Positions 4,263 to 38,234 of a stretch of 43,710 nucleotides of DNA are shown here, piece after piece. Made by a program: the position numbers and the translations under genes. Position 1 is the first letter of the stretch, and each line of letters opens with the position of its first letter. Source of the DNA: Smithella sp. Lineage in GTDB: Bacteria; Desulfobacterota; Syntrophia; Syntrophales; Smithellaceae. The stretch covers positions 1 through 43,710 of the forward strand of contig JAGOMJ010000019.1 in the NCBI GenBank assembly GCA_017993615.1. Direction: 5' to 3'. Under the pieces are notes generated by a model that saw only the letters and a program-made list of their open reading frames with translations, did no database searches and was not told where the DNA came from.

Positions 4263-5192
4263 TTAGAGCCGTGATTGTTTAAATAATTTTCCAGCCAAGC
4301 GTGTAATGCGCCGATAAATTGGCAGAGAAGCGTGAATGCTTTTCAGGGAATCGCGGGCGGCGCTTTCTCCCGCCTTGACAAGGTCCACGGCCCGTTTGAA
4401 ATCCATCCAGTGAAGATTGCCGACCTGGGGACGGATGATCACGTCGGCATCCGCCAATTCCGCCGCCTCCAGAACGCTGGGGGTGATTTCTCCCGCCCTG
4501 AAAACGACGTCCTTCGCCGTTTCGATCCTGAGATTCGTTTGCAAATCTCGATCCACCGTCACAGCGATGACGACGTCGGCTCCGGCCTCCCGTGCGGCGT
4601 GAACCGGCACCAGACTGGTAATGCCGCCGTCAGCCAGCAGCCAGTCTCCGTAACGAACCGGCTCGACGGCTCCCGGAACCGCACAACTGGCCAGCACAAC
4701 CTTGCGCAACGATCCTTCGGAAAAAACGATTTTTTTACCGGAGATCAGATCGGTGGAAACCACGTGAAGAGGAATTCGTGTTTCTTTAATATCGAGATCC
4801 GGCAGAAAATAGTTCATCAGAGAGAGGAAGTCATGGGAAGGCAGAATGGACGGTTTGAAAAAGGCCTGAACAAAAAGAACGCGATTCATGATAAATTGTT
4901 GTGCTTTCTTGAGAATGTTTTTCTCCTCTTGTGTAAAAGACAGTCCAATGGATTTCATCCTGGAGTCGTCGAACTCAGGACTTTGCAGATAAGCGTCGAT
5001 TTTGCTCTCGATCTCATCGGGAGCCTGGCCGGAAGCATAAGCGCCTCCGATCAAAGCACCGGCGCTGGTTCCTACAATCAGATCAATGTCGATGCCTTCT
5101 TCTTCCAGAACCTTGAGAACGCCGATATGAGAAAAACCGCGGACGCCCCCTCCGCCCAGTACCAGTCCAACTTTTTTACCCATCCATTTCAT
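4263..5192 (-). CDS. patatin-like phospholipase, RssA-type
   Basis: Predicted cytoplasmic serine lipase/acyl hydrolase of the bacterial patatin family. The 309-residue protein has all the expected elements. The oxyanion loop is LVLGGGGVRGFSHIGVL (about 10-26). The nucleophile elbow is GTSAG (about 42-46, Ser 44). The Asp of the catalytic dyad lies in LLADGGI (about residue 190). No signal peptide is visible, which fits RssA-like rather than exported toxin patatins. It lies 26 bp downstream of the antiporter gene on the same strand, so they are probably cotranscribed. The native substrate is unknown. Confidence 0.88.
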   Translation of the reverse strand: MKWMGKKVGLVLGGGGVRGFSHIGVLKVLEEEGIDIDLIVGTSAGALIGGAYASGQAPDEIESKIDAYLQSPEFDDSRMKSIGLSFTQEEKNILKKAQQFIMNRVLFVQAFFKPSILPSHDFLSLMNYFLPDLDIKETRIPLHVVSTDLISGKKIVFSEGSLRKVVLASCAVPGAVEPVRYGDWLLADGGITSLVPVHAAREAGADVVIAVTVDRDLQTNLRIETAKDVVFRAGEITPSVLEAAELADADVIIRPQVGNLHWMDFKRAVDLVKAGESAARDSLKSIHASLPIYRRITRLAGKLFKQSRL

Positions 5193-5218
5193 AAACAGAT
5201 ATCTACACCGGTTACGTT

Positions 5219-6889
5219 TTAGAGTTTGCAGGACTCCGCCGTCAGGCAGGTCTGCTCAACAAACCTCGTCAGTTTTTCTCCAATCAGGACATAAGGCAGC
5301 AGCACCTCATCCGCCCCGCTTTTCCTCAAGACATCAATCTGATCGGCCGAATCAGCCGTAGCAACGATGTAGGCGCTGGGCGCCAAGGCACGGCATGAAG
5401 TCACCAGAGCCTTGTTGCTGGTTCCCCGGAGGAGCATGTCGGGAATCGTTGAAAAAATTATTTGTGCTGCGGTTATATGAGCGTGCTCCAGCGTATCCAT
5501 GCTGCCGATATCGCCGAAAATCCCTTTTATGTTTTTATTGCTCAATTCTTTTAAATTTTCAAGATTGAAATCAATCACCAGAAGCTTTTTCAATAAATCC
5601 GGGGTCTCCGTCTCCAGCCGGCCGATAAATTCCCGCGCGCCGCGGTGGAATCCCAGAATCACGATGGGGTAGACATTTTTTTCCTCTTCATCATGATTTT
5701 CTTTCGTCCTGGCCGGAAATCCCCTTTTCTCCAGAAAACGGTTGAATACCAGATACGCCGCGTGATTCCCCTTGATAAAATATGAAGAAAGAACAGACGT
5801 CATGGCCATGGCGTAGATAATCAACGACATCATCCGCTGATCAATGTGCCCGTAATGCACGCCGAGCGCGGCCACCACCAGAGAAAATTCGCTGATCTGG
5901 GCGAGATTCAGACTGGCGATGAAACTGGTCCGCCTGCCGCTGCCCGCCAGCGTCAGCAGCGGATAAATCGTCAAAAAACGAGAAACAATCACAAATAGGA
6001 CAATGATCAACGCCATGCCCAGAATCGCGGCATCGGGAAAAGGAATTTTCATACCAATGGACAGAAAGAAAAGGGTCAGAAAAAAGTCGCGCAGGGGAAG
6101 AACTTTCGCCGTCACATGCATGCTATAGGGAAACGTCGAAATCGCGACACCGGCAATCAGAGCGCCCATTTCCATCGAAAGACCGATCCATGAACCGATA
6201 CCCGCCATCAAAGCGCACCACGCCATAGACATGGCCACCACCATTTCCGGCGTTTGTGATATTTTTTTAAAAATCCAGCTCAACAGGTACTTGCTGAGCA
6301 AAAAACCGATGGCCAGCAGAGCCACGCTCTTGCCGAGAGCGATAAAAACCAGAAGAAATTGCGGATTCGTGAAATGCGGCTGAAGCGCCAGAATCAGAAT
6401 GGCCCACAGGTCCTGAAAAATAAGAATGCCCAGCGTGATCCGTCCGGGGAAGGTGTCCAGTTCAAACTTGTCATAAAGAAGTTTAACGACAATCGCCGTC
6501 GAACTCAGAGCGCAAAACAGGGCCAGATAAAGGGCGTCAATATTGTTTCGGCTCAATTCGTAACCAAGCAGCAGAAAAAATCCCAGCCCGATCAGCACGC
6601 AGAAAATAAACTGGCCGATACCCGCATAGATCAGCTGACGACCGGAAGCCAGGAGTTTGGACGGATTGAGTTCCAGACCGATGATAAAAAGCAGCAGGAT
6701 CAGGCCGATCTCGGAGATGACCTCGATGCTGGCGGCTTCGGAAACCAGATTGAATCCCATCGCCGGCCCGATCAGCGCCCCGGCGACCAGATAACCGAGA
6801 ATGACGGGCTGACGGACAAGCTGAAATACAAAGCCCAGAGCGGTCGCCGCCAGAACAGAAATGCCGATGTCGGTAAGCATGCCATGCAT
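5219..6889 (-). CDS. CPA2-family cation:proton antiporter with C-terminal nucleotide-binding domain (Kef/YbaL-like)
   Basis: Integral inner-membrane antiporter. About twelve membrane segments fill residues 1-385, including LGYLVAGALIGPAMGF and the FLLPLRDFF-like segment seen here as LPLRDFFLTLFFLSIG. A cytoplasmic TrkA-N-like Rossmann domain follows (about 405-535). In that domain the dinucleotide loop reads ILGFHRGAREF instead of the usual GxGxxG, so NAD binding may be altered. A conserved acidic FGDIG segment is present. Total 556 residues, normal for the family. K+ or Na+ specificity cannot be read from the sequence. The start at 6889 gives MHGMLTDIGI, and MLTDIGI is an equally good alternative. 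Confidence 0.85.
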   Translation of the reverse strand: MHGMLTDIGISVLAATALGFVFQLVRQPVILGYLVAGALIGPAMGFNLVSEAASIEVISEIGLILLLFIIGLELNPSKLLASGRQLIYAGIGQFIFCVLIGLGFFLLLGYELSRNNIDALYLALFCALSSTAIVVKLLYDKFELDTFPGRITLGILIFQDLWAILILALQPHFTNPQFLLVFIALGKSVALLAIGFLLSKYLLSWIFKKISQTPEMVVAMSMAWCALMAGIGSWIGLSMEMGALIAGVAISTFPYSMHVTAKVLPLRDFFLTLFFLSIGMKIPFPDAAILGMALIIVLFVIVSRFLTIYPLLTLAGSGRRTSFIASLNLAQISEFSLVVAALGVHYGHIDQRMMSLIIYAMAMTSVLSSYFIKGNHAAYLVFNRFLEKRGFPARTKENHDEEEKNVYPIVILGFHRGAREFIGRLETETPDLLKKLLVIDFNLENLKELSNKNIKGIFGDIGSMDTLEHAHITAAQIIFSTIPDMLLRGTSNKALVTSCRALAPSAYIVATADSADQIDVLRKSGADEVLLPYVLIGEKLTRFVEQTCLTAESCKL

Positions 6890-7041
6890 AAGTTCGTATC
6901 TTTAATGCGTCACTGCGTATAAAGCCGAATGTTATTTTACTATCATAATGTTATAATGATTACAAATTCGCCGCCGTCCGCGGTCCTTGTTTTCATAAAG
7001 AACGATTTTGCAAAACGCTCTAGGACGCGAAAGACAGCGTA

Positions 7042-8430
7042 TTATTTTCCGATACAGAAACTGGAAAAAATCCTATCCAGGATCTCGTCGTTGATTTTTT
7101 TGCCGGTTATTTCATCCAGATGATCCAGCGCTTCGCGTAAATCGAACGCGATAAATTCCGCTGATAGACCGGCGGTAACGCTTTCTTTCGCGTTTTGAAT
7201 ATTTTTCAGAGATTGCTCGACGGCATGTTTGTGGCGTAAATTGGTCAGGATCGCCCCGGACGTGCTTTCTGTTTCACCGTCAACGGATAAATCCAAGATT
7301 GTTCTTTTCAGCTCTTCCAGTCCGGAGCCGGACTTGGCCGAGATTTCCAGAAACTTTGTATGAGGCGGAAAAAGGTTCGCAATGCTTTTCGTTTCCCACG
7401 AACGCGGCAAGTCGATCTTATTGACGGCGACAATGATTTTCTCCGACGTGTTTTTATCAATCGTTATTTTATCTTCTTCTGTCAACGGTTTACTCACGTC
7501 CAGCATGATTATGACAATATCCGCTTCGGCCAGTTTTTTCCAGACGAGCGCAATACCCTCCTGCTCGATTACGTTTTGCGGTTCCCGGATTCCGGCGGTA
7601 TCCGTCAGGTGCACGGGAATACCGCCGATATGAATCGTATCCGCAATCAGATCGCGTGTTGTTCCCGGAATATCAGTGACGATCGCTTTTTTCTTTCCCG
7701 CAAGAGCATTGAGCAGACTGGATTTCCCGACGTTGGGCTTTCCTGTAATGACCACATGAACACCTTCCGAATAGGCTCTGGCAAAGCGGTAGGATGTAAG
7801 AAGCCTCTGCATTCTTTCCATTGCCTGATTGATCTGCGGCGGTATTTGCACAAGCTCTGCTTCAGCGGTATCTTCTGCAAAATCGATGCTTGCTTCCATG
7901 AGGGCGAGCGCTTCGATCACCAACCCGCGGATCGTTTCAATTTCTTTGGAAAGCGATCCTTTGAGCTGTGCGAGCCCCACGGCGTAGGCTTTTTCGGATT
8001 GGGCGCCAATCATCGAGGCCAGCGCTTCCGCCTGGGACAAATCAAAACGGTTATTCAGAAAAGCGCGTTGTGAAAATTCTCCGGGACCTGCCAGCCGGCA
8101 TCCCAGTTTTTGCAATTGGTCAAGAATGGATTGGATGATAACAGGATTTCCGTGACAGCTGATTTCGACAACATCCTCGCCCGTAAATGAGCGGGGTTTG
8201 CGCATGAAAGCTATCAGGATTTCATCCAGTACCGTTTCGCCATCGGCGCAAACGATATCACCATGGTAAAGATGATGGCTTTTCCAGTCGCATGGACGGT
8301 TTGACGGTCTGAAAATACGGCGCGCCACTGCAAGGGCTTCCGGTCCGCTGACCCGGATGACGGCTATTCCGGACATGCCGAAAGGCGTTGCCGCGGCGGC
8401 TATGGTATCGCTGCGAAGCACGGCAGGCAC
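7042..8430 (-). CDS. mnmE: tRNA modification GTPase MnmE (TrmE)
   Basis: With MnmG it installs the 5-carboxymethylaminomethyl group on wobble uridine of certain tRNAs. The 462-residue protein has the N-terminal folate-binding domain (about 1-120, opening LRSDTIAAAATPFGMSGIAV). The G domain is inserted in the helical domain and contains GKPNVGKSS (about 225), IPGTTRD, DTAGIRE and NKID. The invariant C-terminal CIGK ends the protein. It starts 10 bp downstream of the jag stop in the rpmH cluster. mnmG is not in this window. Confidence 0.97.
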   Translation of the reverse strand: MPAVLRSDTIAAAATPFGMSGIAVIRVSGPEALAVARRIFRPSNRPCDWKSHHLYHGDIVCADGETVLDEILIAFMRKPRSFTGEDVVEISCHGNPVIIQSILDQLQKLGCRLAGPGEFSQRAFLNNRFDLSQAEALASMIGAQSEKAYAVGLAQLKGSLSKEIETIRGLVIEALALMEASIDFAEDTAEAELVQIPPQINQAMERMQRLLTSYRFARAYSEGVHVVITGKPNVGKSSLLNALAGKKKAIVTDIPGTTRDLIADTIHIGGIPVHLTDTAGIREPQNVIEQEGIALVWKKLAEADIVIIMLDVSKPLTEEDKITIDKNTSEKIIVAVNKIDLPRSWETKSIANLFPPHTKFLEISAKSGSGLEELKRTILDLSVDGETESTSGAILTNLRHKHAVEQSLKNIQNAKESVTAGLSAEFIAFDLREALDHLDEITGKKINDEILDRIFSSFCIGK

Positions 8431-32188: not shown

Positions 32189-33601
32189 ATGGATGAACAA
32201 CAAAAAGAATTGTTGAAGCAATTGCCGAAGATTGACGAAATTATTCTTCTTCTGGAGAAACAAAACATCTATGATCTGGCGCCGCACGAAATCGTCAAAG
32301 AAACCTGCCGCAGGATTGTGCAGAACCTGCGTGATAAAATCGTCAACGCTAAAAAGAAGCTTCCTGCAGAATTCATTCCCGATGCTAAAACAACCGCCAA
32401 AGAGGTGGAACAATCAATTAAAGGGTTGTACCGCTACAGCCTGCGCCGCGTCGTCAATGCCACGGGCGTTATTCTGCACACCAACCTGGGACGCGCGCCG
32501 CTTTGCCCCGAAGCTCTGGAAAGAATTATGGAAGTGGGCAAGGCCTACTCCAATCTGGAATTTGATTTAAACAAAGGCGAGCGCGGCCAACGCTACGATC
32601 ATGTCAGTTCGCTGCTTTGCGCCCTCACCGGCGCAGAAGATGCTTTAATCGTCAATAACAATGCGGCGGCGGTTTTGCTGGTGCTCAATACGCTGGCCCA
32701 GAAAAAAGAAGCCATCGTCTCGCGAGGCGAGCTCATCGAAATCGGCGGCGAATTCCGCATCCCGGAAATCATGCAAAAAAGCGCAACAAAACTTCGCGAA
32801 GTGGGAACGACCAACCGTACACGGCAAAGCGACTACGAAAAAGCCATCAACGACAAAACGGGTCTGATCATGAAAGTCCACACCAGCAATTACCGCATTG
32901 TGGGATTCACCGAAGAAGCAAGTATTGAATCGCTGGTTGAACTGGGTAAGAACAGGGGCATTCCGGTCATGGACGATCTGGGCAGCGGCTGCCTGATTGA
33001 TCTGGACCGCTACGGTCTGCAGCACGAGCCGACGATCCGTGAAAGACTGGCCGCGGGCGTTGACGTGGTCACGTTCAGCGGCGACAAACTTTTGGGCGGC
33101 CCGCAAGCCGGAATCATCGTCGGCAAAAAAGAAGTCCTCGCGAAAATCAAAAAGAATCCCCTGAACCGCGCCCTGCGCATCGACAAATTCACGCTGGCCG
33201 CTCTGGAAGCCACCTTGATGCATTACTTGAATACCTCCGCGGCGCCGAAGAAATTACGGGCCCTGAAGGCTTTGACCGAACCTGTTGCCGATGTCAAAAA
33301 ACGCGCTGAAAAATTAATAGAAAAATTGCAAAATGAAAATTTCGATCAGTTGAAATTCTCCATCCGTGAAGATTTCGCGGCAGCCGGCGGCGGCTCCCTG
33401 CCCACGCAGCAGATTCCCACGGTTTTAGTTGCCGTCAACAACAAAAATATGACGGCTACCAGGATGGAAGAAAAACTGCGCAAGCTTGAAATGCCGATCA
33501 TCGCCCGCGTGGATAAGGATGAAATCCTCTTCGACCTGCGCACCGTGGCAGAAGATGAATTTACATTCATCATTGAAGGGTTGAAACAGATAATCACCTA
33601 A
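32189..33601 (+). CDS. selA: L-seryl-tRNA(Sec) selenium transferase
   Basis: PLP enzyme converting Ser-tRNA(Sec) to Sec-tRNA(Sec) using selenophosphate. The 470-residue protein is full length. It has the N-terminal tRNA-binding region (1-60), RRVVNATGVILHTNLGRAPL, NNNAAAVLLVLNTLA and the PLP-lysine site VTFSGDKLLGGPQAG (Lys near residue 300). A GAGG site precedes the ATG. selB, selC and selD are not visible in the window, although selA commonly neighbours selB. Its presence implies that the organism makes selenoproteins. Confidence 0.96.
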   Translation: MDEQQKELLKQLPKIDEIILLLEKQNIYDLAPHEIVKETCRRIVQNLRDKIVNAKKKLPAEFIPDAKTTAKEVEQSIKGLYRYSLRRVVNATGVILHTNLGRAPLCPEALERIMEVGKAYSNLEFDLNKGERGQRYDHVSSLLCALTGAEDALIVNNNAAAVLLVLNTLAQKKEAIVSRGELIEIGGEFRIPEIMQKSATKLREVGTTNRTRQSDYEKAINDKTGLIMKVHTSNYRIVGFTEEASIESLVELGKNRGIPVMDDLGSGCLIDLDRYGLQHEPTIRERLAAGVDVVTFSGDKLLGGPQAGIIVGKKEVLAKIKKNPLNRALRIDKFTLAALEATLMHYLNTSAAPKKLRALKALTEPVADVKKRAEKLIEKLQNENFDQLKFSIREDFAAAGGGSLPTQQIPTVLVAVNNKNMTATRMEEKLRKLEMPIIARVDKDEILFDLRTVAEDEFTFIIEGLKQIIT

Positions 33602-33736: not shown

Positions 33737-34870
33737 ATGAAAAAAATCTTTGCAAAGATTTCCAGCATGAATGGCGTGTATAAGGCCTTTCTGGTGTACT
33801 TTTTAATACTCCTTTTGGCATTGACATATAAATGTTTTCCCATATTCGATCAATCGGAGACCATCAACAACTTGAGTTTTTCCCATGACGGAAAGAAAAT
33901 CGTGTTTGACCGCTGTCGTAATGTAGGCTGTCAGATACAGGTCTATGATTTGGCAACAGGTGAATTGGCTGCTTATAAATCGCCCCTGACAAAAAGATGG
34001 ACTATGGGGAAGTACTCTTATGACGGGAAGAAAATCACTTTCTCCATTATCCCCATAAAAATTACCGGTGATCTCAATTTGAATAAGATGCAGATAGCCG
34101 TCATGGATGCTGACGGGAAGAACTTTAAAAAGGTTACCACCGGCCCCGGCGCCAAGTTATATCCAACTTTTTCTCATAACGGGAAGAAGATACTCTATGC
34201 CCGCGCGGCTCGTATCAGAGAAAAAGGCAAAACACCCGCTGCGGATTACGATGCCTGGGAAGTTGATTTGACAACCGGCAAGCAGACACAACTCTCTCAT
34301 TTCGAGTATTTTTACATGGGTTACCTCTCATATTTTCCTGATGATGAAAGATTCATGTATTACGGGGAACTGCCATCAATATTTGAGGGTGAGAGATTAT
34401 CTGCTGGTGGAGGAGGCTATAATCCTAGGCTGATTGAATTGGCGAAAAGAGGTATGGGTATACATGCCGTTGTCGAGATGAAAGGTAAGGATCTTATTCC
34501 AACGATGTATAATTTTGGTGACAAGGTTGTTCCCGAAAAGCCACTTCTGAGCAAAGACGGATCCGTACTGATATTTGGAAAAGCCGCTGAGGCAGGAACA
34601 TTTTACCTCTATTCATCGGATGGCAATCACCGGCTTGTGGGTAGTGGTGGTTCGGTTGATTCCGCAGCTATCTCACCAGATGGGACGTTGCTGGGAATGA
34701 TATCAGTTAAACTAGGCATACATATCTTTTCAGTCCCTGACGGCCAACGTCAGAAAGATCTATATGTACCATATGCAAAGAAAAAAATTGTAAATTGGAA
34801 AGAATCACATAAAGGAAATAAATATTTATACAAGATGATACCTGAAAAACCTTCACGCATTCTCAATTGA
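33737..34870 (+). CDS. membrane-anchored TolB-like (PD40) beta-propeller protein
   Basis: A 377-residue protein with one N-terminal membrane anchor or uncleaved signal (about 15-34, VYKAFLVYFLILLLALTYKC) and a periplasmic propeller of PD40-type blades. The blades are seen as repeats of F-S-x-D/N-G-K-K-I: FSHDGKKIVFDR, YSYDGKKITFS, FSHNGKKILYAR, then YFPDDERFMYY and ISPDGTLLGMIS. Such propellers bind proteins or carry sugars; the specific role is unknown. It is the first cargo gene of the accessory block between selA and rluD. Confidence 0.75.
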   Translation: MKKIFAKISSMNGVYKAFLVYFLILLLALTYKCFPIFDQSETINNLSFSHDGKKIVFDRCRNVGCQIQVYDLATGELAAYKSPLTKRWTMGKYSYDGKKITFSIIPIKITGDLNLNKMQIAVMDADGKNFKKVTTGPGAKLYPTFSHNGKKILYARAARIREKGKTPAADYDAWEVDLTTGKQTQLSHFEYFYMGYLSYFPDDERFMYYGELPSIFEGERLSAGGGGYNPRLIELAKRGMGIHAVVEMKGKDLIPTMYNFGDKVVPEKPLLSKDGSVLIFGKAAEAGTFYLYSSDGNHRLVGSGGSVDSAAISPDGTLLGMISVKLGIHIFSVPDGQRQKDLYVPYAKKKIVNWKESHKGNKYLYKMIPEKPSRILN

Positions 34871-34891
34871 TAAGAAAAGTCAAAAAGGTGT

Positions 34892-34919
34892 ATGGATACC
34901 GGTCTTCGCCGGTAAGACA
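34892..34919 (+). repeat. REP-like hairpin, copy 1
   Basis: ATGGATACCGGTCTTCGCCG and then GTAAGACA, with stem TACCGG/CCGGTA (34897-34914). It has the same TGGAT-stem-loop-stem-GACA architecture as the copies at 37179 and 40349 but is more degenerate. Confidence 0.65.
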
Positions 34920-34933
34920 TAATAAGGTAAAAC

Positions 34934-34990
34934 CGGAGCAATAAGTTGGTCGGAAAGAGGGACGCCCTTAAAATTGTAAAATAGATAAAT
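34934..34990 (+). pseudogene. decayed copy of the rluD 5' end, relic 1
   Basis: GCAATAAGTTGGTCGGAAAG (34938-34957) and the following bases match the start of rluD (GCAATAAGATGGTCGGACAG, 37212-37231) at 21 of 25 aligned positions. The rluD ATG is TTG here, and the frame (LVGKRDALKIVK) stops after 12 codons. It follows the beta-propeller gene. Confidence 0.6.
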
Positions 34991-35130
34991 AAAGGATAAC
35001 TGATACCGCACTCAACAAGACTCAATGTTCCCAAAGAAATATGTCAGCACCCTTTTTTCCGACTCCTTGGACAGTCTCCCGCCCGCTAAAGCAAGGCTTT
35101 TTATCTACCGGAAAGGCATTATAAAAACCG
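34991..35130. other. intergenic stretch before the AAA ATPase gene
   Basis: No gene supported. A small AAAGC-aag-GCTTT stem lies near 35088-35101. Together with the REP-like copy and relic 1, this accounts for the 317-bp gap after the propeller gene. Confidence 0.4.
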
Positions 35131-35167
35131 TTGACAAACTGACTGAATTATATATAATACGGTCAAC
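35130..35167 (+). promoter_or_regulatory. strong sigma-70 promoter for the AAA ATPase, with inverted repeat
   Basis: TTGACA (35131-35136), 16-base spacer, TATAAT (35153-35158): both hexamers are perfect. The 6-bp arms GTTGAC (35130-35135) and GTCAAC (35162-35167) bracket the promoter as an inverted repeat and could be a repressor site. The start codon is 30 bp downstream of the -10. Confidence 0.8.
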
Positions 35168-35187
35168 ACAATGACCAAGGTAATTAT

Positions 35188-36318
35188 ATGTACATTGCAC
35201 AAAAACAATTGGAAAAGTTAAGAAATCTGGCCGTTCCGGGCAAGGTGGTTGTTATTTACGGCGCCAGGCGCACGGGTAAAACGACACTGCTGAAAGAATT
35301 TCTGAAAGACGAAACAAAAGATCATCTGCTGGTCAACGGAGAAGATATTACCGTCCATTCCTATTTATCCAGCCAGTCGGTGGAAAAGCTCACATCTTTT
35401 GTCGGCAACGCAAAACTTCTGATTGTTGACGAAGCGCAGAAAATTCCCAATATCGGAATAAATCTCAAGCTGATTGTTGATCATCTATCCGGTATCCGCA
35501 TGGTCGTCACCGGCTCGTCGTCCTTCGATCTGGCGCGTCACACGGGCGAACCGCTGACCGGACGAAAATACACGCTCAAATTGTTTCCGCTGGCGCAAAT
35601 GGAAATCGGTCAGATTGAAAGAATACATCAAACTCAAGCCCATCTGGAGAACCGCTTGATTTACGGTTCTTATCCCGAAGTCGTCTTAATGCAGGATAAT
35701 CAAGGGCGGGAAAAGTATCTCAAAGAAATCGTGTCTTCTTATTTGTATAAAGATATTCTGGAGCTCGACGGCATCAGACAATCCGTCAAGATTATCCGCC
35801 TGCTCCAGCTTCTTGCTTTCCAGATAGGCAAGGAAGTATCGCTGACCGAACTGGGAACATCATTATCCATGAGCAAGAATACCGTGGAGCGCTATCTGGA
35901 CCTCCTGGAAAAAGCATTCGTCCTGCATCGCTTGACCGGTTTCAGCCGCAACCTGCGCAGTGAAATCATAAAAAACTGCCGCTACTATTTTCTGGACAAC
36001 GGCGTGCGCAACGCGCTGATCAACAATTTCAATCCGCTCTCGCAACGCAACGATTGCGGCGAATTGTGGGAGAATTACCTGATCATGGAAAGATTGAAAA
36101 GGCAGGAATATCTGGACACCCCGGCTAATAATTATTTCTGGCGGACTTATACCAGACAGGAAATTGATTTTGTCGAAGAGCGTCAAGGCCGCCTGTTCGG
36201 CTATGAAATGAAATGGGGCAAGGCAAAACCCAAGCCACCGAAACTCTGGCAGTCGGCCTATCCGGAATCTTCCTATGAGCTGATTAACAGAGAGAATTAT
36301 CTCAAGTTTATTACTTGA
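35188..36318 (+). CDS. AAA ATPase with C-terminal DUF4143
   Basis: A 376-residue protein of the common AAA_14/DUF4143 family. Walker A is GARRTGKTT (25-33), Walker B LLIVDEAQK, sensor-1 VVTGSSSFDLA. A winged-helix-like region (VSLTELGTSLSMSKNTVERY, about 218-237) and DUF4143 follow, ending in a nuclease-like fold segment (TRQEIDFVEERQGRLFGYEMKWGK). The E-I-D-F...E-x-K pattern resembles PD-(D/E)xK sites. Family members are widespread, often on mobile DNA, and mostly without known function. It is the second cargo gene upstream of rluD. Confidence 0.88.
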   Translation: MYIAQKQLEKLRNLAVPGKVVVIYGARRTGKTTLLKEFLKDETKDHLLVNGEDITVHSYLSSQSVEKLTSFVGNAKLLIVDEAQKIPNIGINLKLIVDHLSGIRMVVTGSSSFDLARHTGEPLTGRKYTLKLFPLAQMEIGQIERIHQTQAHLENRLIYGSYPEVVLMQDNQGREKYLKEIVSSYLYKDILELDGIRQSVKIIRLLQLLAFQIGKEVSLTELGTSLSMSKNTVERYLDLLEKAFVLHRLTGFSRNLRSEIIKNCRYYFLDNGVRNALINNFNPLSQRNDCGELWENYLIMERLKRQEYLDTPANNYFWRTYTRQEIDFVEERQGRLFGYEMKWGKAKPKPPKLWQSAYPESSYELINRENYLKFIT

Positions 36319-36322
36319 TGCA

Positions 36323-36346
36323 GGAACTGCTTTCCCGAACAGTTCC
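36323..36346 (+). terminator. hairpin after the AAA ATPase gene
   Basis: GGAACTG / CAGTTCC, 7-bp stem, 10-base loop, 5 bp past the stop. No T run follows, so it is a weak terminator candidate. Confidence 0.35.
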
Positions 36347-36371
36347 ATAACTAAAATACCGGAGCAAATAC

Positions 36372-36467
36372 TTGTTAGGGACGTCTGAAAAAATCAGTTT
36401 TATAGTGGATAAAAGCCAGAGCGGGCAGAGGCTGATTTTTCAGTGGGACAAACATTTCAATATTTAA
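36372..36467 (+). pseudogene. truncated copy of the rluD 5' end, relic 2
   Basis: A frame starting at TTG 36372 reads LLGTSEKISFIVDKSQSGQR then LIFQWDKHFNI and stops. The intact RluD begins MVGQAEKIKFTVDKSQGGQR. At DNA level GATAAAAGCCAGAGCGGGCA (36408-36427) and the next 8 bases match 37257-37284 at 26 or more of 28 positions. The homology starts about 10 bp upstream of the start codon and ends near codon 22. It follows the AAA ATPase gene. Confidence 0.85.
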
Positions 36468-36489
36468 TCTAAAAGAACAAGGTGTTGAC

Positions 36490-37083
36490 ATGGCAACTGT
36501 TAAACGAATTAAATCTGATAATGTATTTCAATTAAAAATAACTCTTAATCATATTAAGCCACCGATTTGGAGAAGAGTATTGGTTGATTCAGATATTAAG
36601 CTGCCTGATTTACATAAAATTATACAGACTGTAATGGGCTGGACTAATTCTCATTTACATCAATTTATTATTGGCAATCAATATTACTCACTTCCAAGCG
36701 ATGAATCATTTTACAAAGTAGTTGATTATCGCCGAATTAAATTGGATTCATTATTCAATACGCCAAAATCAAATTTTATTTATGAATATGATTTTGGGGA
36801 TGGTTGGGAACATTCAATCGTTATTGAAAAAATACTGCCTCGTAAAAAAAACACTTATTATCCAATATGCATTGACGGCAAACGAAGTTGCCCACCTGAA
36901 GATTGTGGTGGCACCTTTGGTTATGAAAATCTTATTACGATAATAAACAATCCCGAACATGAAGAATATGATGAAATGATGGAATGGCTTGGAGATTATT
37001 TTGACCCGAAGGAGTTCAATATAGATGAAGTGAATGAATTCCTCCGTGAAAAAAATTTTGGTTGTGTCGAATTATTTGACTAA
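36490..37083 (+). CDS. plasmid pRiA4b ORF-3 family protein
   Basis: A 197-residue member of the pRiA4b ORF-3-like family. The family signatures are LKITLNHIKPPIWRRVLVDS (about 16-35), LHKIIQTVMGWTNSHLHQF, YEYDFGDGWEHSI (about 99-111) and CPPEDCGGTFGYENL. The molecular function is unknown; relatives are frequent on plasmids and mobile DNA. The gene is clearly AT-richer than its neighbours and uses many ATT, AAT and TTA codons, suggesting transfer. Third cargo gene before rluD. The start context GGTGTTGACATGG has only a weak ribosome binding site. Confidence 0.85.
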   Translation: MATVKRIKSDNVFQLKITLNHIKPPIWRRVLVDSDIKLPDLHKIIQTVMGWTNSHLHQFIIGNQYYSLPSDESFYKVVDYRRIKLDSLFNTPKSNFIYEYDFGDGWEHSIVIEKILPRKKNTYYPICIDGKRSCPPEDCGGTFGYENLITIINNPEHEEYDEMMEWLGDYFDPKEFNIDEVNEFLREKNFGCVELFD

Positions 37084-37178
37084 AAGAAGGTATTGATAAT
37101 TTATAATATATTCGTTTCTATTTTTATGGAAACATGGAACGCCTTTGAGTTATCAAGTTTTTCAAAATGAAAAAGACT

Positions 37179-37204
37179 GGATTCCCGCCTTAGCGGGAAT
37201 GACA
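37179..37204 (+). repeat. REP-like hairpin, copy 2
   Basis: TGG-ATTCCCGC-ctta-GCGGGAAT-GACA: perfect 8-bp stem, 4-base loop, immediately upstream of rluD. Same flanks as the copy at 40349. Confidence 0.8.
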
Positions 37205-37220
37205 AAATTGAGGCAATAAG

Positions 37221-38234
37221 ATGGTCGGACAGGCGGAAAAAATAAAATTTACAGTTGATAAAAGCCAGGGCGGGCAGAGGCTGGATATATATCTCGCGCA
37301 GAGCGAGGCGGCGCTTTCGCGTTCGCAGGTGAAGTACGCCATTGAGGAAGGCGATGTGCTGGTCAACGATAAAGTTCCCAAAGTCAGCCAGCACCTCAAG
37401 GAAGGCGACGTGATTGTGCTGACCAAAAGGCCGCCGGTGGAGGCCATAGCCGTCCCGCAGGAAATGCCGCTGGACATCGTTTACGAAGACGACGCCGTTA
37501 TCGTCATCAACAAACCGGCGGGTATGGTGGTGCATCCGGCGCCCGGGAATCCCGATAAAACGCTCGTCAATGCTTTGCTTTTCCACTGCCATGATTTATC
37601 CGGCATCGGCGGTGTCTTGCGTCCGGGCATTGTGCACCGGCTGGATAAGGACACGTCCGGCCTTATTGTGGCGGCAAAATCCGATGACGCGCACCGCAAT
37701 CTTTCTTCGCAGTTTGAAAAACACGATGTGCACAAAAAATATCTGGCGCTCGTCTGGGGAGACGTGAAAGGCAATAGTGGAGAAATAGTTCTGCCTGTCG
37801 GCAGGCACACAAACAACCGCAAAAAAATGTCCACAAAAAGCAGACACGGCAAAGGCGCGCTCACTCTTTGGAAAGTGCGCGAACGCTTCGGCGTGGCAAC
37901 GCTTCTGGATGTGGAGATTAAAACCGGACGCACGCATCAGATCCGCGTGCATTTGTCCGACCGCGGTTATCCGGTGGTGGGCGATGCCGTTTACGGCAAC
38001 TCCGCCAAAATCAACACGGTTAAAGATCCCCTGCTGAAGGCAAAGATCAAGGAATTTAACCGGCAGGCACTGCACGCGGCACAACTTTCTTTCATTCATC
38101 CGCAAAAAGGCGAGCGGGTGGTATTTACCGCGGACATGCCGCAGGATCTGGCGGATTTGTGCGCTCAATTACGGACAAGCATCAAGTCAGTTGACTCAAA
38201 AAAAGATATGTGGAAGGATAAATTAAAAGGGTAA
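37221..38234 (+). CDS. rluD: 23S rRNA pseudouridine synthase RluD-type
   Basis: Isomerises uridines to pseudouridine in helix 69 of 23S rRNA (positions 1911/1915/1917 in E. coli numbering) if orthologous to RluD. The 337 residues comprise an N-terminal S4 domain (about 14-75) and the catalytic domain with GIVHRLDKDTSGLIVAAKS (catalytic Asp at about residue 142), GRTHQIRVHLSDRGYPVVGD and RQALHAAQLSF. GAGG lies upstream of the ATG. Only 3 bp separate it from pgeF. Its first codons are duplicated twice upstream, showing that insertions have targeted this position. Confidence 0.94.
   Translation: MVGQAEKIKFTVDKSQGGQRLDIYLAQSEAALSRSQVKYAIEEGDVLVNDKVPKVSQHLKEGDVIVLTKRPPVEAIAVPQEMPLDIVYEDDAVIVINKPAGMVVHPAPGNPDKTLVNALLFHCHDLSGIGGVLRPGIVHRLDKDTSGLIVAAKSDDAHRNLSSQFEKHDVHKKYLALVWGDVKGNSGEIVLPVGRHTNNRKKMSTKSRHGKGALTLWKVRERFGVATLLDVEIKTGRTHQIRVHLSDRGYPVVGDAVYGNSAKINTVKDPLLKAKIKEFNRQALHAAQLSFIHPQKGERVVFTADMPQDLADLCAQLRTSIKSVDSKKDMWKDKLKG

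Follow-up and report, generated by a model that had tools for sequence, protein, structure and literature searches.

Stacked gene-end relics between selA and rluD in Smithella-like bacteria suggest homology-anchored gene gain without an integrase

Cargo genes and relics in the window

How did three unrelated genes come to lie in a row between selA and rluD, each followed by a stretch that resembles the start of rluD? The window (the whole stretch of 43,710 nt that was analysed) is one contig of a Smithella-like genome, whose named relatives are Smithella sp. and Syntrophaceae MAGs. A sequence-only reading of the window had proposed that incoming modules, each with its own rluD 5' end, recombined or integrated at the start of rluD, restored the gene and left the old 5' end behind. 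The gene order that it gave (selA, beta-propeller, relic 1, AAA/DUF4143, relic 2, pRiA4b ORF-3, rluD) is as claimed, and the features are the following.

32189..33601, plus strand: selA, the left conserved flank (Pfam SelA, E=1e-158), which adjoins rluD across the family
33737..34870, plus strand: cargo A, a PD40/WD40-like beta-propeller protein
34929..34990, plus strand: relic 1, a probable rluD 5' end (leader, TTG start, first ~12-15 codons)
35130..35187, plus strand: promoter-like leader of the AAA cassette, which four further genomes have conserved in different contexts
35188..36318, plus strand: cargo B, an AAA_14/DUF4143 ATPase (PADLOC candidate PDC-S01)
36355..36434, plus strand: relic 2, an rluD 5' end (leader, TTG start, ~21 codons)
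36490..37083, plus strand: cargo C, a plasmid pRiA4b ORF-3-like protein (G+C 32%, versus 53% in rluD)
37204..37290, plus strand: rluD leader and first ~70 nt, the part that recurs in the relics
37221..38234, plus strand: intact rluD, the right conserved flank

A match to the start of rluD had been noted behind each of the two upstream cargo genes. For relic 2 this is secure. It agrees with rluD at 76% over 71 nt, ungapped, and a profile of the rluD 5' end finds it with E=6e-14 among the selA-rluD intervals and with E=1.4e-13 in the window; on these alignments relic 2 is genuine beyond doubt. Relic 1 is probable only. Its local score against rluD (23) was reached by none of 500 dinucleotide shuffles, and the same score was reached at two places outside the accepted relics among 13,388 real 160-nt windows, one of these places lying elsewhere in the window on the wrong strand. 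The profile matches relic 1 over 21 nt with E=1.2 only, and we estimate its chance probability, for an interval of 3.6 kb and the correct strand, at ~0.005-0.06. Relic 1 gains weight because in one relative, G061, the same pair of genes (propeller and AAA) encloses a clear rluD relic; relic 1 is weak by sequence and likely by position. It is very improbable that chance similarity, or a tandem duplication with later decay, accounts for the relics as a whole. Relic 1 alone remains marginal against chance, which is ruled out for relic 2 (E about 1e-13) and for a relic in the relative G034 (E about 1e-29); simple tandem duplication is ruled out by the unrelated cargo between the relics.

The relics do share a left edge, which lies about 10 bp before the start codon. 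It is most simply the ribosome-binding site, because further to the left each rluD allele has its own cargo. The other ends of the relics vary, lying at about nt 60, 70 and 115 of rluD. In the comparison of relics with rluD alleles, both relics of the window match the resident rluD best; they are short and decayed, and no donor can be named.

Two further observations concern the sequence around these features. Five genomes share the AAA/DUF4143 segment (PDC-S01, window 35130-36318) over its full length, from a promoter-like leader of ~55 bp through to the stop codon, and the sequences to its left and right are unrelated among the five; the gene with its leader has the look of a discrete cassette. 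Palindromic dispersed repeats (GGATTCCCGC...GCGGGAATGAC and variants) lie directly upstream of rluD, at 37166-37207 in the window and in many relatives.

Variation of the interval and further relics in relatives

We compared 38 genomes of the family and 18 genomes from other families of the order, all of them draft assemblies, with one genome per species. The family retains the order hemN-selA-rluD-pgeF. In its 38 genomes the selA-rluD gap is between 13 and 3954 bp long and exceeds 400 bp in 16 of them, whereas the flanking gaps at the same loci do not exceed 269 bp (hemN-selA) and 177 bp (rluD-pgeF), and the selA-rluD gap in the 18 other genomes, measured as the distance between match ends, is 6-137 bp. 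Because the gap varies in the family while its neighbours are small and other families have short gaps, these distances indicate that it is a family-specific variable site whose variability arose within the family. Cargo in relatives comprises small secreted-protein-like genes without a known family, acyltransferases, a Cache-domain sensor, an M24 peptidase, PemK/MazF, PIN, ParE/HTH pairs and AAA/DUF4143. Cargo A also lies between selA and rluD in the relative G029, and at other loci in further genomes. Both empty sites and different cargo, which had been proposed as a check, are thus present between selA and rluD, as in minimal mobile elements and integrase-less hotspots.

No integrase was found among the cargo proteins scanned in the window and relatives, and the three PF00589 genes of the window's own genome are all on other contigs. 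Mobility genes are absent in the window and most genomes, the exception being an IS200-like Y1_Tnp in G019, G027 and G030. The variable gap and the integrase-free cargo support the proposed cargo-loading hotspot without an integrase. In the three exceptional genomes the Y1_Tnp (REP-type) transposase gene lies just upstream of rluD (L060, L049 and L057, respectively), and its end repeat, which is present in inverted form upstream, seems to provide rluD with its ATG start codon (ATAGGTGTTATGTCCCCGGAA).

When 812 gene ends were compared blindly with 540 kb of these loci, 13 matches passed the cut-off of E < 0.01. The rluD relic of the window was a strong match, as were the rluD relic of G034 (91% over 92 nt), a selA 3' relic in G073 (81% over 107 nt) and a lipA 3' relic in G008 (81% over 134 nt); shorter matches were found to the selA 3' end in G027 and to the rluD 5' end in G015. 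The G034 relic (~100 nt, about 91%) sits between two cargo genes, so that with G015 two further genomes carry relics of the rluD start, as anticipated. Because G015 has the same junction of relic 2 and cargo C (ORF-3) as the window, this insertion is either older than the separation of the two species or passed from one to the other. The match after selA in G027 (score 25) is ambiguous.

The selA 3' end is a second anchor and source of scars in relatives. Mirror scars of this kind, in the form of a ~115-nt selA 3' relic (E ~1e-24) behind a ParE/HTH toxin-antitoxin pair, are present in G073 and G061, where the relic runs on into a spacer matching the one between selA and rluD in the sibling G031. 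In G073 the relic and spacer score 84 against G031 versus 66 against G073's own current selA end, the last part of which most resembles another subclade, with a lead of about 10 points. The pattern fits what would be expected if the relic were the old resident end and the present selA end had arrived with the cargo.

Scars of similar form occur at other loci. The locus lipA-X of G007 reads lipA-vapBC-lipA 3' relic-X in G008 (L037, 1600-3500); in G033 a vapB-like start lies just after lipA. We also took 0.8 Mb of G007 as a genome-wide sample. A molybdopterin oxidoreductase-like gene (contig 3, 527359-531085) is followed by two 3' relics in succession, of 63 and about 35 nt, with small ORFs between them, and two other genes have one 3' relic each. 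In total there were six right-side gene-end matches, of which two are immediate tandem copies and four are scar-like (three genes), and four matches of other orientation. The controls gave 2 matches on the right side and strand and 5 of other orientation in 0.94 Mb of unrelated bacteria, and 0 and 1, respectively, in 0.19 Mb of the order's other families. The excess in G007 is suggestive, and part of the signal is background, because unrelated bacteria, too, have relics of the right side and strand, if less often. The view that insertion is specific to the start of rluD did not hold, given the selA 3' relics in the same interval and those of lipA and other genes elsewhere; the finding is more general than the rluD start alone.

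Exchange of blocks and movement of relics

Two relatives, G034 and G029, come from a different genus of the family, g2. Over the first 60 nt their rluD genes are up to 85 and 81% identical to the window's genus and 41-61% to non-sister g2 siblings, whereas the bodies of the genes match g2 siblings (counts of informative sites are 6:0 vs 9:78, with p=7e-6, and 6:1 vs 11:76, with p=1e-4). The rluD leader and first ~70 nt, from which the relics of the window derive, is the same part that was exchanged here. The last ~45 nt of selA are likewise of the type of the window's genus in both genomes, with a native gene body (p=5e-4 and 1.5e-4, each for the best of several cuts and uncorrected for that choice). 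The other type of rluD start (TTGTCC...) is probably ancestral because it occurs in several genera. These tracts begin in selA and end in rluD, as homologous recombination in both flanks would leave them. They suggest that a segment reaching from the selA end to the rluD start passed between the two genera, with both crossovers near gene ends. The relic in G034 may have arrived with the exchanged block rather than formed in place, because it is of window-genus type to about nt 115.

A relic was also found away from rluD. On contig 44 of G061 (L205, about 4600-7500), between rmuC and an NlpC gene, we found a propeller gene, a small ORF fused to an rluD relic (about 6090-6203, codons ~18-58), AAA/DUF4143 (88% identical) and a short selA-end-like stretch (E = 0.004), in the order of the window. 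In G030 a weak rluD 5' relic (contig 57, L213, 3367-3424, E about 4e-5) lies away from rluD, about 1.1 kb upstream of a propeller homologue. Since the G061 unit sits at a different locus, it appears that relics can move as passengers with cargo, and relics are therefore not one-for-one counts of events. The array of the window may owe its three modules to fewer than three acquisitions, and the earlier equation of three modules with three events at this site is not proven. In the extreme, all relics would have been made elsewhere or long ago and would travel only as passengers in double-crossover blocks, their stacking being inherited. The G061 unit, the weak G030 relic near a propeller gene and the block exchange in G029 and G034 are in favour of this; a pure passenger view leaves the formation of the first relic unexplained, and the relics in the selA and lipA cases are resident-like. 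We consider it unlikely.

Mechanism and relation to known systems

The displaced gene ends call to mind integrative elements, which replace the end of a gene and displace the old one; SXT, for example, docks in the start of prfC. Site-specific elements or satellites could thus dock in the start of rluD with an integrase that is elsewhere or lost, in which case the relics would be displaced att-side ends, and the shared left edge and the three integrases elsewhere in the genome would agree with this. However, no fixed core common to all junctions was found. One integrase site is opposed by the differing relic lengths, the scars from both flanks and the lack of an integrase in any cargo scanned, and the import tracts of G029 and G034 end in both flanking genes. 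A single att site is ruled out by the variable relic ends and the scars at selA, and we hold integrase docking in general to be improbable.

The reading that we consider probable is that the gap is an integrase-free site of insertion and exchange, which works through double homologous exchange and occasional one-sided, homology-facilitated illegitimate insertion. Its activity would be sustained by ordinary homologous recombination in the conserved genes on either side. Chromosomal DNA from a related bacterium would bring cargo beside a selA 3' end, an rluD 5' end or both. If both flanks match, two crossovers near the gene ends would swap the whole interval. If a single flank pairs (rluD start or selA end), the other incoming end would join illegitimately in or beside the resident gene end; the gene would be restored with the donor end and the resident end would stay as a relic between old and new cargo. 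Repetition at rluD would yield cargo-relic-cargo-relic-cargo-rluD, as in the window, if each relic there was made at this site, as we infer. The selA and lipA cases would fit a homologous anchor on one side and a foreign gene end joined to the resident gene. The comparison of the site in relatives, with its foreign gene ends, relics, variable interval, two-flank scars and integrase-free cargo, supports the original idea of DNA that arrives with its own rluD 5' end; of the proposed recombination at rluD, one-sided gain stands, and the exchange of whole intervals by double crossover (G029 and G034) has to be added to it. The uptake route may be natural transformation, which comEC (17/17 genomes of the genus) and dprA (16/17) permit and do not show.

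Small circles carrying cargo and an rluD fragment would also duplicate the rluD start when integrated by a single crossover. This gives the same order of cargo, relic, cargo and gene, and would explain a relic with a donor-like distal part, as in G034. It needs circle formation and a crossover within 60-115 nt of 75-90% identity, and the selA and lipA relics look resident, running into resident spacer or gene, so we give it little credence compared with one-sided insertion and double exchange of linear intervals.

The process is most likely of a known kind, namely that of integrase-less hotspots, minimal mobile elements and homology-facilitated illegitimate recombination. The last is known from laboratory events (cited in PMC6382021) and was proposed as a source of small variable segments in nature (PMC2884548); as in the laboratory events, we would have one homologous anchor and one illegitimate junction. 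At the latter 3-10 bp of microhomology would be expected, and the junctions here are too old, and donor and recipient too distant, for it to be read. It was also proposed for the stacked orphan immunity genes of the Vibrio cholerae T6SS (PMC5361080, PMC9711863), where successive one-sided homology-anchored insertions likewise push back old gene ends without an integrase. There the anchor is the toxin/chaperone region and the leftover is the immunity gene, whereas here housekeeping anchors stay intact, the cargo is unrelated and the scars come from both flanks. Rhs/CDI orphan 3' ends (as cited in PMC5361080) are similar strings of displaced gene ends, in toxin systems selected for variety rather than in housekeeping genes. 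In the minimal mobile elements of Neisseria, different genes lie between two conserved genes (PMC2784325; Snyder 2007 cited there), and the interval is similarly swapped by homologous recombination without mobility genes of its own; the passages on these elements describe whole-interval exchange and do not mention stacked gene-end relics. Integrase-less hotspots (PMC5635113) are also variable spots with few mobile elements and recombining flanking core genes; they were defined statistically within species, whereas here the comparison is across genera and the scars are individual. What is new is that housekeeping genes of an uncultured syntroph family hold a physical record of it that is clear, recurs and comes from both sides.

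Many hotspots of gene acquisition lack an integrase, and the entry of genes into them has been argued mostly from statistics. In the natural genomes of these uncultured syntrophs, single insertions have left physical scars that derive from the one or the other flanking gene and preserve order and polarity. It is conceivable, though unlikely, that Smithella-like bacteria have an active, possibly specialised route of DNA uptake or repair by which foreign genes are preferentially docked, across the whole genome, at housekeeping gene ends; if so, gene-end relics would be a readable, ordered record of successive gene acquisitions. If our preferred reading is right, a search for such relics could serve in general to reveal gene gain anchored by homology, and the cargo, with its toxin-antitoxin pairs and a candidate defence ATPase, would tell us what gets loaded.
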